A stretch of 41,095 nucleotides of DNA from Methanotrichaceae archaeon (GTDB lineage Archaea > Halobacteriota > Methanosarcinia > Methanotrichales > Methanotrichaceae): positions 1 through 41,095 of the forward strand of contig JAFGMR010000002.1 in the NCBI GenBank assembly GCA_016927425.1. The letters run 5' to 3'. The first letter of the stretch is position 1; each line of letters opens with the position of its first letter. The position numbers were made by a program, and so were the translations under genes. Positions 20,045-24,325 of the stretch are shown piece by piece. Under the pieces are notes generated by a model. It was not told the origin of the DNA and did not search any database. It saw only the letters and a program-made list of their open reading frames with translations.

Positions 20045-22723
20045 ATGAAATTGTGGAAGCTTAAAGGGGGGGCAGGGCCGATCCGCTTGTATTTGGGCCT
20101 ATCTCTCATACTGCTCGCCTCCTGTACAGGGGCAGCCGGCCAGGCGGTGGAATCGGCCCAGGTAAGGGGATACATGGCATGGGGCCCTGCGAGCTGGGAC
20201 GCACATGACTTCGGCTGGTTCTACTATGAGCCAGATGACGATTCAGGAGGCGAGAGGCTGGATGTGTTTCCCATGGGCCGAATGGTGCCCGAGGGGGGCG
20301 TCATTTACTCTAGCAGCGTCTGGTCCCAGGAGTACAATTACGAGGATTGGGGGGGGTTTCGGGCAGTTGCCTTCATGGGCAAGCCATACTTCGTCGGCTA
20401 CCCCAACAGCACCTTCACCGACGAGGTCGACACGTTGGACGAAGGGGATATGAGGGATGTCCTGCTCGACGTGGACTCAGATGTAACCTTCAACACAAGC
20501 CTTCCCCTGGCGTTGGCCGAAGGATTCATCCTGGCACTTCAGGATGTCTCGGATGACGGCCAGGATGTCTATCTGACCCTCTATCAAGGCAAAGCCGCTG
20601 TAGACCATGCCGTGGTCCAAAGCGGCGAGACCTACAGCTACAAGGTCGGCGATGATGAGCTCCCGATCATCCTGGTGCACGTCCAGAGCGCCATGAAGGG
20701 GCGAGATGAGTCCCTCTGCCAGGTCGACGGCGTCTTCCAGGTAGAGGAGGCGCCCTCCGTGCATCTATCCGATGGCCAGCATCTGGAGAAGCTAGTCCTC
20801 TCCGAGCTCTCCTCCGATGTAATGGTCTTCAAGAGCTCAGAGGACATCTCCCTCTCGCCGGATAGCATGATACTCCTCGCAGGAAAGCTCTTCTTGAGGG
20901 TTATCGACGACCTCTCGCTGCTCTACTACCCCGTTGGCGTATACGATGAGTATGGATTCCACGCCATAAGAGGGCCGGTCGTGGAGGGCGACTCATCGAG
21001 GCCCACCAGGTTCGCTGATGCCCCGGCAATGGCTCAGGCCGAGTGGAACTCATTTAACACTTCATGCCTCTACTTCGACGACGATCAGATGATAGGGCGC
21101 GAGACCATCTTCATGAACGGATCTCTTGACAGGACCATCCCCTGGGCCTATTTTGTGTCCGGGGTGAGCGGCCTGGATGTAAGTGGCCTCTTCTACTACT
21201 CCCTTCCCCAGTGGCGTGAGTTTGAGAGGGAGGAGTGGGGGGCTTACGATGTGGTGAGCCTCTTTGGCCAGCTCTGGTTTGCTGGATACGGCCCCTACAC
21301 CCGCGAGGAGATCGGCCAGGCAAGCCCCCTCGATTATGAGGAGCTGATATCGATCCTTATCGATACGGATCGGCGCGACATCGCCGGGAAGGGGGATATA
21401 TTCCGGCTGCAAGGGGGATATACCCTCTTCGTCCAGGACGTGGGAAAGGAGAGGGCCTTCTTCAGCATATATAAGGACGGGAGATGGGTCGACAACTCAA
21501 CGATATCCTCAAACAGCACCTACGTCTACAAGGAGGACGTGAGGGATATCCCTGACCTTCCCATCTTGGTGATCCATGTGGGCGCCATCTTCGAGGACCT
21601 CTCCAGGAACTTCGCAGAGATCGATGGCCTCTTCCAGATCTCAGACCAGATCTACCTGCCCCTGGAAAGCGGGATGGAGTTCGACAAGATGGTCGTGCTC
21701 CAGGCCGATCATGGCATTATCCTGATGGGGAACCACGAGGTAATCGACCTCAAGCGCGATTCCATCATCACATTATGGCCGGAGATCGCAGGCCTCTGGA
21801 AGGCGATGAACATTCGCGTTGCAGACAACGATACTCTCCGTTACTTCCCCTATACGGTGGAGTATGTAGTCCCTCCTCCCGAGATAATGCAGCTCTCGGC
21901 GACGAAAGAGGTGACTCCGCAGATCCCTGCCAACTTCAGCATGCTCATTCAGGGGGCTGAGATCGAGGGGGTGCTGGCCGAGGTGGTGGACCCCTACGGC
22001 CGAAAGGTATCGAGCATGGACATCACGTCCACTGGCGTAGGATCGGGAGACCACTGGTCATATCAGTGGTCATGGGTGCCTACTATCTCCGTCTTGAGCG
22101 ATGATGGAACCCTGGTCCCGGATCTGAACTGGGTATTGCCTTCGGCCATCCTCTACCAGCCGGATTCCTATCCGCTGGAGGTTGGGGTCAAGTTCGACAG
22201 TTCCGGAAGGATTGCGGGCATCACCGACCTTGCTGGGGAGATATACTACATATCGCCCTCGGAGTACGCCAGAGCCGGTCTGGACTATGCGACGATGCTA
22301 GGAAACCGCACCCTTCGAGAGGAGCTGATCAAGATCGTGCCCAACCAGAGCATCTTGGGCTTCATAACCTATGTAAACGAGACAGCGGTCAGCCAGAGCA
22401 ACCATACGTTGCAGGGATCCCTCGAAGCCCTGGAGCCTCACCTCATCCGTCTTCCAGCACCCCCTGGCGAGTACGGGCTCGCCATCAAGATGGCGAATGT
22501 GATCACATCGCGCGCTGAGGGGGGCTTTCCGATCAAGGTCTTGGCCCAGCCCTCTGAGCCGAATGCTATCGATCAGCCGCTCTCTGATGATGAACAGGCA
22601 GCGGACGAATCGGGAGGGGAATCGGGAGGATCCGGAGACGAGACGGCGACGAAGAGAAGCCCGGGGGCAGGGCTATTGGCTGCGCTGCTCGCCTTCTTCG
22701 CATCCGAAAGGTTGCGCAGATGA
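20045..22723 (+). CDS. S-layer protein (two Methanosarcina-type S-layer domains, PGF-CTERM-like tail)
   Basis: 892 residues. A signal peptide (YLGLSLILLASC) ends near residue 32. Two copies of the Methanosarcina S-layer domain (DUF1608 / S_layer_rel_Mac type) follow at about residues 40-300 and 328-605, with matching landmarks: YNYEDWGGFRAVAFMGKPYF in the first and REEWGAYDVVSLFGQLWF in the second, each with a WFYY/LFYY strand upstream and a VFQ/LFQ region. A third Ig-like region occupies about 610-840. The C-terminus is an acidic Gly/Ser linker, then SPGAGLLAALLAFFASERLRR-type tripartite sorting signal (PG motif, hydrophobic segment, Arg cluster), expected to be cut and lipid-anchored by an archaeosortase. 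It probably forms or contributes to the cell-wall lattice. Confidence 0.92.
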   Translation: MKLWKLKGGAGPIRLYLGLSLILLASCTGAAGQAVESAQVRGYMAWGPASWDAHDFGWFYYEPDDDSGGERLDVFPMGRMVPEGGVIYSSSVWSQEYNYEDWGGFRAVAFMGKPYFVGYPNSTFTDEVDTLDEGDMRDVLLDVDSDVTFNTSLPLALAEGFILALQDVSDDGQDVYLTLYQGKAAVDHAVVQSGETYSYKVGDDELPIILVHVQSAMKGRDESLCQVDGVFQVEEAPSVHLSDGQHLEKLVLSELSSDVMVFKSSEDISLSPDSMILLAGKLFLRVIDDLSLLYYPVGVYDEYGFHAIRGPVVEGDSSRPTRFADAPAMAQAEWNSFNTSCLYFDDDQMIGRETIFMNGSLDRTIPWAYFVSGVSGLDVSGLFYYSLPQWREFEREEWGAYDVVSLFGQLWFAGYGPYTREEIGQASPLDYEELISILIDTDRRDIAGKGDIFRLQGGYTLFVQDVGKERAFFSIYKDGRWVDNSTISSNSTYVYKEDVRDIPDLPILVIHVGAIFEDLSRNFAEIDGLFQISDQIYLPLESGMEFDKMVVLQADHGIILMGNHEVIDLKRDSIITLWPEIAGLWKAMNIRVADNDTLRYFPYTVEYVVPPPEIMQLSATKEVTPQIPANFSMLIQGAEIEGVLAEVVDPYGRKVSSMDITSTGVGSGDHWSYQWSWVPTISVLSDDGTLVPDLNWVLPSAILYQPDSYPLEVGVKFDSSGRIAGITDLAGEIYYISPSEYARAGLDYATMLGNRTLREELIKIVPNQSILGFITYVNETAVSQSNHTLQGSLEALEPHLIRLPAPPGEYGLAIKMANVITSRAEGGFPIKVLAQPSEPNAIDQPLSDDEQAADESGGESGGSGDETATKRSPGAGLLAALLAFFASERLRR

Positions 22724-22769
22724 TTTAGGCGGCATCCTTTTTTACATCGGAAGGCTAAATATCAAGTCT

Positions 22770-23885
22770 ATGAGACCGATTGCCTTTCTCCTCTGTATTG
22801 CGGTCCTGGCGGGCTTTACTCTTTCATCGCTCTGCCAGGACGATGGCGACATCTGCCTGATCTGCCCATACTGCGGCGCCATCTACAGGCTCTCGCCACT
22901 CGAGGTAGCTGAGACCGATCCCTATGAGCTCTGCCCCAACTGCGGCCTTGCTTGGGCAAAGGACTTCCTTGCGTTCTCCTGCTCGGATCTGGATGAATCC
23001 CTCGATGACGGGGGCGATGGCATCGATGGCGGCACCGATTACGAAACCGATAGCGTAACCGAGGACGATTGGGACGAGCCCGAGTCTCCCACCGGCAGGA
23101 TCAATTCCTCCGATCTGGCGGGAACCGCCCTATCCGATCCTGTCGGGGATCCGAATTCCAACTATGTTGTGCTCATGGTAGTTCCCCCAAGTGAGTATCA
23201 GGAGGACGAGCTGGAAGTCCCGATGGATCGCTTCCGGGAGATGGGGATGGAGGTGGATCTAGCCTCCCTTGGCACGGCAACTGCAATCGGCATGAACGGC
23301 GGATCCGCCGAGATCGACCTGAACATAACCGAGGCGAACCTCTCGCGATATGATGCAGTCGTCTTCGTAGGAGGGATGGGCATAGATATCCTGAGGCTAT
23401 ACGAGAGATCCGAGTATCTGGACCTGGCTCGAGAGGCCGAGGGGGCAGGTCTCGTCGTTGGGGCGATCTGCCTTGCACCGAAGATACTGGCGAGGGCCGA
23501 CCTCCTCCGGGGAAGGATGGTCACTTCAAGCGATCCGGACTACATCATAGCAAAAGGCGCCGATTTCAGGGACCAGGAAGTCGTAAGGGACGGCCTGATA
23601 GTTAGCGCAAACGGCCCCGAAGCTTCGGGGAAGTTCGCCGATGCGCTGATCGAGGCGATTGTGGAATCGGGCGCGATAAGAGAGCGAGATAGGGGGGGCT
23701 GGGTGTTGCCAGCGGGGTCACGCCCGGGCGATAGCAAGGCCTATGCACCGCCTGCCCCCTTCGTCCTATCCCATCTTCTGTATGCCTCGCCGAGAGCGCT
23801 TCCGACTGCCTTCATGGAGGCGTCGACCACCCTTCGATCATTGCCCCCCTTCGCCGAGAGGTGGAGCGTGAAGCGGCCGTTGTAG
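22770..23885 (+). CDS. exported zinc-ribbon / DJ-1-PfpI-family protein
   Basis: 371 residues from the ATG at 22770; the frame upstream of it overlaps the S-layer gene and is rejected. A signal peptide (IAFLLCIAVLAGFTLSSLC) is followed by a zinc-ribbon-like segment with two CxxC pairs (CPYCGAIYRL ... CPNCGLAW, about residues 32-62), an acidic low-complexity linker, and a DJ-1/PfpI domain at about residues 125-305. The latter keeps the nucleophile elbow GAICLAPKILA with its cysteine and the preceding VVFVGGMG strand. Family members include glyoxalase III-type deglycases, chaperones and proteases; most are cytoplasmic, so export with a zinc ribbon is odd. The last 48 residues run antisense over the end of the hisB-like gene and may not be structured. 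Confidence 0.78.
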   Translation: MRPIAFLLCIAVLAGFTLSSLCQDDGDICLICPYCGAIYRLSPLEVAETDPYELCPNCGLAWAKDFLAFSCSDLDESLDDGGDGIDGGTDYETDSVTEDDWDEPESPTGRINSSDLAGTALSDPVGDPNSNYVVLMVVPPSEYQEDELEVPMDRFREMGMEVDLASLGTATAIGMNGGSAEIDLNITEANLSRYDAVVFVGGMGIDILRLYERSEYLDLAREAEGAGLVVGAICLAPKILARADLLRGRMVTSSDPDYIIAKGADFRDQEVVRDGLIVSANGPEASGKFADALIEAIVESGAIRERDRGGWVLPAGSRPGDSKAYAPPAPFVLSHLLYASPRALPTAFMEASTTLRSLPPFAERWSVKRPL

Positions 23886-24325
23886 GCAAGCGCCCTCAGG
23901 AAATGGTCGACCATCGCAAGATCCATCCCCTCGAGCTTCTCCCCCCTCCAGGAGATCTCCCCCACGAATCCTGGTTCGCCGAGGCTGACCGCGGCCGTGG
24001 CCTGGCTCTCCCCGGAGGGAACGATGGAGCTCCCCCAGCCCTCTCCCTCTGGAATGGCTTGCCCCAGCGTGATTCCCACGTCCTCTACGGTGTGATGCTC
24101 TCCGCAATCGAGATCGCCCTTGGCCACAACTTCGAGGTTCCAGCCTGCAGCAATAGCGAGGGAGCGCAAGATCTCATCCAGGAGCCAGACCCCGGTCTGA
24201 GCCTTGCACTCTCCTCTTCCATATAGGTCCAGGGTGACCTCTACCCTCGTCTCCCCCGTCTCCCTCGTCCTCTGTATGGGCATGGCAAGGCCGTTGGAAG
24301 CCATCCTATGAAAAGCTAGGGTCAT
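23741..24325 (-). CDS. hisB: imidazoleglycerol-phosphate dehydratase homologue lacking several metal-binding residues
   Basis: 194 residues, normal length for HisB. The ATG at 24325 has GGAG four bases upstream and overlaps the preceding TPR gene by 20 bases. Homology is clear: RTRETGETRVEVTLDLYGRG, TGV..LDEIL, KGDLDCGEHHTVEDVGITLGQAI, TLHLSAKGGND and MKAVGSAL. However the usual DHML is DEIL, the following AxHG is AAGW, the central PMDE-type acidic motif is absent, and the second HHxxE motif reads RRVVD. HisB uses two manganese ions bound by exactly these duplicated His motifs. The first HHTVED and the VDHF histidine remain. Either it is an inactive or repurposed paralogue, or the only, very divergent, HisB of this organism. 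Confidence 0.8.
   Translation of the reverse strand: MTLAFHRMASNGLAMPIQRTRETGETRVEVTLDLYGRGECKAQTGVWLLDEILRSLAIAAGWNLEVVAKGDLDCGEHHTVEDVGITLGQAIPEGEGWGSSIVPSGESQATAAVSLGEPGFVGEISWRGEKLEGMDLAMVDHFLRALAYNGRFTLHLSAKGGNDRRVVDASMKAVGSALGEAYRRWDRTKGAGGA

Follow-up and report, generated by a model that had tools for sequence, protein, structure and literature searches.

IGPD is known from textbooks as a homomeric enzyme and serves as a target of herbicides, and the gene at 23741–24325 of the window raises the question of what a HisB homolog can be doing once most of the residues that hold its metals are gone. The window is the whole stretch of DNA analyzed here, 41,095 nt of a Methanotrichaceae archaeon (GCA_016927425.1, contig JAFGMR010000002.1, positions 1–41,095, forward strand). 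An initial annotation had described the product as a HisB homolog without most of its metal-binding histidines and had proposed a repurposed ligand-binding or scaffold protein. The description is borne out. The proposal is not the best reading, because the relatives carry a complementary second half-HisB, which favors a catalytic partner subunit.

The window gene and its altered residues

The open reading frame has 194 codons when counted from the first ATG, and an inner ATG at 24283 (MPIQRTRET...) is the start that aligns with the relatives. The gene was aligned with 33 orthologs; we call this form type B and the second paralog of these archaea type A. Numbering was matched on sequence L010, in which the ligand His213 of Medicago (Mt) is the HF histidine at position 136 (offset 77 from H115 to R189; 9 for Arabidopsis, At). 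The features, and their conservation in 35 type B and 36 type A sequences, are the following.

23741–24325, minus strand: IGPD paralog of type B, putative HisB half-site subunit (open reading frame from the first ATG, Pfam IGPD, ortholog alignment)
24248–24265, minus strand: RETGET, the kept N-terminal R.T.ET motif, including the residue that corresponds to catalytic Glu21 in Arabidopsis IGPD2 (alignment)
24173–24175, minus strand: Glu replacing the metal-ligand His of DHML (At H47); His kept in 0/35 type B and 36/36 type A
24080–24097, minus strand: HHTVED, retained metal-ligand motif (At H73, H74, E77); HH and E in 35/35 type B, HH in 0/36 type A
24011–24019, minus strand: PSG replacing PMD (At D108 lost); PMD in 36/36 type A, MD in 0/35 type B
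23903–23905, minus strand: His of MVDHFLRAL, retained fourth metal ligand of the same half-site as HHTVED (At H145, Mt H213); 35/35 type B, 0/36 type A
23822–23836, minus strand: RRVVD replacing the second HHxxE (At H169, H170, E173); HHxxE in 36/36 type A, His at the two sites in 1/35 and 0/35 type B

The ligand His of MVDHFLRAL, which the initial annotation had not mentioned, is residue 127 from the inner ATG. All the changes listed in the initial annotation are present: HHTVED is kept and DEIL stands for DHML, IAAGW is found where LAxHG is usual, VPSGE where PMDE is usual, and NDRRVVD where NDHHxxE is usual. The protein belongs to the IGPD family by sequence (Pfam PF00475, E = 1.8e-31, 109.6 bits for a cut-off of 27) and by fold, as its single-chain AlphaFold model (pLDDT 93.6) has the duplicated β-α IGPD fold and best matches 6FWH (TM 0.89). 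By its residues it is not a complete HisB. The C-terminal STKG loop, present in 36/36 type A sequences and likewise not mentioned in the initial annotation, is absent from it and from type B in general, and neither type has all eight metal ligands and both D/NxHHxxE motifs in a single chain. The model of a type A protein (pLDDT 91.1) also has 6FWH as its best match (TM 0.90). Both models match solved IGPDs first and nothing else convincingly, 6FWH being the best sequence match as well.

Two genes lie nearby. The convergent neighbor (22563–23885) encodes a DJ-1/PfpI protein that carries a CPYCG-type segment at its N terminus and probably a signal peptide, and homologs of it adjoin type B in the loci of four relatives. 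At 20045–22723 lies the gene of a large S-layer protein (PF07752), whose homologs adjoin type B in the loci of 11 relatives.

Two IGPD genes in Methanotrichaceae

Exactly two IGPD genes, one of each type, are present in 34 of the 36 Methanotrichaceae relatives, and a single one in each of 24 outgroup genomes of the same class. The initial annotation had recommended searching for a second, canonical HisB. None was found in any Methanotrichaceae genome examined (the 36 relatives and the window genome), and what the relatives have instead is a complementary second half-HisB. Pfam IGPD scores range from 190 to 222 bits for the single-copy outgroup genes, from 138 to 160 for type A, and from 82 to 116 for type B. 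Both types miss the HisB equivalog cut-offs, among them that of NCBIfam NF002111 (231 bits; window protein 122, type A 186–190, canonical outgroup 294). The changes seen in the window protein recur in related methanogens and are not restricted to this sequence. In two genomes of the same class but of another family (L024 and L025; G039:C10 and G037:C12), the reading frame of hisB contains a TAG codon at one shared position (..PMDDSCA-TAG-VAID..), as though the codon stood for an amino acid (pyrrolysine or recoding).

Type B is found essentially only in Methanotrichaceae. Among 84,980 species genomes scanned, 41 type B loci were found, and 40 of these come from records titled Methanothrix, Methanosaeta, Methanocrinis, their family or order, or unresolved Euryarchaeota. 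The remaining record is titled bacterium UBP9_UBA1432 and has the same gene neighbors as the others; it is probably mislabeled. The 39 other relatives are all canonical. The type B reading frame is intact in 35 genomes, one of them with the gene cut by a contig end. It is absent from the assemblies of two relatives, G006 (85% complete) and G036 (99% complete, 200 contigs), and in the latter the purP-like gene described below has a different neighbor.

In a tree of 59 sequences, type A and type B each form one clade (support 100/100) across many genera of the family. Constraining the two clades to be sisters costs 4.7 log units, and the AU test fails to reject this topology (p-AU 0.28). The window sequence has the longest end branch within type B (0.96), as expected for the sole genome of its genus.

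The genomic contexts of the two types differ. Type A is adjoined by hisA in 29/36 loci, as is canonical hisB in 22/22 Methanosarcinaceae-type outgroup loci, and is thus the positional heir of canonical hisB. Type B adjoins a divergent purP-like gene (DUF1246 and DUF1297) in 23/34 loci, for example in L032, L128, and L133. PurP acts on AICAR, which the HisF/HisH step of histidine synthesis releases as a by-product. In the window, the type B gene overlaps the end of a TPR gene, and the initial annotation had cited this coupling as an argument against decay; the TPR neighbor is not conserved in the loci of the relatives, most of which have the purP-like gene there instead, and it looks peculiar to the window.

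Type A was not found in the assembly of the window genome (2.3 Mb, 94 contigs, 99.24% complete), and a Pfam IGPD search of the whole assembly gave no match besides the window gene. hisA was not found in this assembly either, the strong family matches being hisF-like; hisF, hisD, and hisG are present. The gene order in relative G014 is guaA, type A, hisA, and a gene that reads as helicase-like. In the window genome, contig C61 runs on for 78 bases past the end of guaA, and at the start of contig C63 there are 358 bases outside the helicase-like gene; neither stretch contains hisA or type A sequence. Given that hisA is likewise absent and that both flanking genes sit at the ends of contigs, the simplest account is that hisA and type A lie in an assembly gap, which is likely; for the same reasons a true loss of type A is not favored. 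The first 160 bases of C63 (L090, 1–160) are part of a short interspersed repeat with 52 matches in this genome. The repeat is found at several contig ends and is a likely cause of breaks in the assembly. Elsewhere, on contig C82 (29000–36000, L082), a second hisF-like gene lies directly 3′ of a hisH-like gene; the two adjoin a glutamate-synthase-like gene and are possibly a dedicated pair outside histidine synthesis.

Reciprocal losses on the solved structure

The 61 canonical IGPD sequences used as a reference have 47 invariant columns. At the 90% level, 18 of these are kept only in type A, 12 only in type B, 12 in both, and 5 in neither. Type A lacks R.T.ET and HHxxED, but 36/36 of its sequences contain the H of DHM, the R of RYG, PMD, the R and Y of GRxY, NDHHxxE, the K of FKA, and STKG. 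Type B has lost this set; R.T.ET, GD, HHxxE, and the HF histidine are present in 35/35 of its sequences, and 34/35 also have the D that ends HHxxED. Its 12 exclusive columns are held at 97–100%, with every A′ metal ligand at 100%, and the window protein retains every residue that type B keeps. In type A, the E of R.T.ET remains in 3/36 sequences and its R and two T in 0–1/36; among the positions of the A′ metal ligands, Glu21, and GD...HHxxED, only the Glu of HHxxE (10/36) and the Gly of GD (23/36) remain in more than 3/36. The losses are reciprocal, each type having lost what the other kept.

This division can be placed on the solved enzyme. The active site of IGPD holds two Mn about 6.5 Å apart between two chains, and a third chain provides phosphate contacts. 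In 6FWH, chain A contributes H40, H162, H163, E166, K170, and D101, chain A′ contributes H66, H67, E70, and H138, and chain C binds phosphate by R92, R114, S191, and K193 (PMC6029752); the assignment of the metal ligands agrees in PMC10978614 and PMC4509728. In Arabidopsis numbering, these are H47, H169, H170, E173, D108, and K177 for A, H73, H74, E77, and H145 for A′, and R99, R121, S199, and K201 for C (PMC6029752, PMC4509728, PMC10978614). Without exception, the 10 residues from chains A and C are fixed in type A alone and the 4 from A′ in type B alone. The probability of an equally perfect split of these 14 residues under random allotment is about 1e-3 to 1e-4, which is a guide only, as the positions are partly dependent. 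Sequence by sequence, all four A′ ligands are present in 35/35 type B, and all four chain A ligands with the phosphate-binding residues in 36/36 type A. The equivalent of E173, found in 36/36 type A, occurs in about two thirds of type B, and that of K177, also in 36/36 type A, in 15% of type B.

The catalytic Glu21 equivalent, retained only in type B (35/35, against 3/36 in type A), calls for a closer look. The E21Q mutant of Arabidopsis IGPD is inactive (PMC4509728). The caption in that work prints Glu21A, that is, the other chain, which taken literally would put Glu21 at the wrong site. IGPD contains an internal repeat (hhalign of the two halves, probability 97), in which the Glu21 segment pairs with the D108 segment. 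As the D108 segment adjoins, on chain A (D101A), the HHxxE from its own half of the protein, Glu21 would lie beside the first HHxxE on chain A′. Hence, by this sequence comparison, the likelier reading is that Glu21 acts from the A′ side.

The product of the window gene is very probably one of the two subunits, both obligatory, of a heteromeric IGPD whose active sites are composite; this enzyme would have arisen by duplication and complementary loss. We infer that A and B assemble together and that their complex is the IGPD of the cell, and composite A–B sites are well supported by the partition of residues. After duplication of the gene in Methanotrichaceae, type B would have retained only the A′ half-site and the N-terminal segment with the catalytic Glu, and type A would have been left with the residues of chains A and C and the C-terminal loop. 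A functional site would then form only where B meets A, the reverse face of the same interface being dead. At such a site, B would give the A′ half of the di-manganese center and most likely the acid-base Glu21, and A would give the other metal half, the phosphate pocket, and the closing C-loop. The importance of this loop is apparent from P. furiosus IGPD, which its deletion inactivates (PMC4509728).

Several observations stand against a heteromer. The equivalent of At H55, a phosphate contact that is water-mediated in some complexes, is lost in both types, and the ordinarily conserved His at position 150 of L010 is variable in both. In addition, type A is unseen in the window assembly and type B in two relatives, one of them 99% complete, and the tree does not demonstrate that the A and B clades are sisters. 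The two histidines could also suggest that both paralogs left histidine synthesis for a joint role elsewhere, such as a different dehydration or a scaffold that binds metal; the true IGPD would then be an unrelated enzyme, or the cells would require histidine. The position of type B beside a purP-like gene, outside any his cluster, fits this as well. Yet metal ligands, phosphate-binding set, and C-loop are jointly preserved across A and B, type A keeps its hisA neighborhood, the window genome has hisG, hisD, and hisF, and purP itself handles a by-product of the pathway. Such a joint departure is thus very improbable.

That type A alone is the (modified) enzyme, with type B as a prozyme-like activator or other non-catalytic partner or scaffold (the initial annotation had sketched something of this kind), is somewhat less implausible but still unlikely. 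Type A retains more of the canonical residues, the C-loop, and the hisA neighborhood, and prozymes arising by duplication are known (PMC3663545). However, what type A lacks (the metal ligands of A′, the counterpart of Glu21, and the GD...HHxxED segment) is exactly what type B keeps, and a mere scaffold would have no reason to retain a metal half-site and a catalytic Glu in every sequence. Nor is one partner here a dead activator of another with the whole active site, as in a prozyme pair, since the losses are reciprocal. Least probable of all is that type B is a duplicate undergoing decay, whether in the window genome or family-wide. The window sequence has the long end branch noted above and is the sole HisB match in its assembly, but the conservation of type B reported above, and its intact frames in 35 genomes, are not those of a decaying gene. 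The initial annotation had also argued against decay, and rightly so: the gene is intact, and the same losses and retentions are fixed across the 35 type B sequences compared, which is no chance pattern.

The overall architecture of the favored A–B enzyme is more conjectural. Trimers are the building block of IGPD, with the metals located between them (PMC10978614, PMC11040733), so that with A3 and B3 trimers on alternate corners of a cube all 12 edges would be productive, on one face each. The enzyme might thus be a 24-mer in which A3 and B3 trimers alternate and 12 sites are functional. Without Mn, IGPD falls into inactive trimers, and Mn restores the assembly (PMC10978614), behavior that would suit two trimer types. 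The third-chain residues (R99, R121, S199, K201) kept only by A would suit A3 trimers, provided that chains A and C sit in one trimer. We give about an even chance to a two-component cage of 12 A and 12 B chains, in which trimers alternating at the eight corners meet only across edges and each dinuclear manganese site takes one half from each type.

Comparison with known systems

The whole family of acetate-using methanogens formed by Methanothrix and its relatives appears to run IGPD as two complementary half-enzymes. This would be an unusually clean natural example of a symmetric homomer turned into an obligate heteromer by reciprocal decay, traceable residue by residue on a solved structure. 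If the cage is true, an ancient homomeric site became an obligate two-gene site through mirror-image loss of half-sites at the base of an archaeal family. There is also a warning for annotation, as both genes are half-complete and a one-chain HisB search would score Methanotrichaceae as lacking the enzyme. In the open-access literature, to which the search was confined, no earlier report of two hisB genes or of a heteromeric IGPD was found.

The Methanotrichaceae pair resembles known IGPD/HisB (PF00475; 6FWH, 2F1D, 4MU4) in fold, in family score, and, for type A, in hisA adjacency; once A and B are summed, the full metal ligands, the phosphate-binding residues, and the C-loop are there too. 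The known enzymes differ in being homo-24-mers with both half-sites in each chain, whereas in Methanotrichaceae each chain has one half-site, as read from the sequences. Bifunctional HisB (histidinol-phosphatase/IGPD, e.g., in E. coli) shares the IGPD domain, but it joins two enzymes in one chain and its IGPD domain is complete, so that no single active site is split. The closest parallels are the DHSc/DHSp and AdoMetDC/prozyme pairs of trypanosomatids, also paralogs shaped by duplication and loss, in which each partner is inactive or nearly so alone and the active complex needs both (PMC3663545). Their fold and reaction are unrelated to those of IGPD, and in them a dead partner activates an impaired enzyme, whereas in Methanotrichaceae each partner has lost what the other keeps, along the division between the two halves of their shared metal site.
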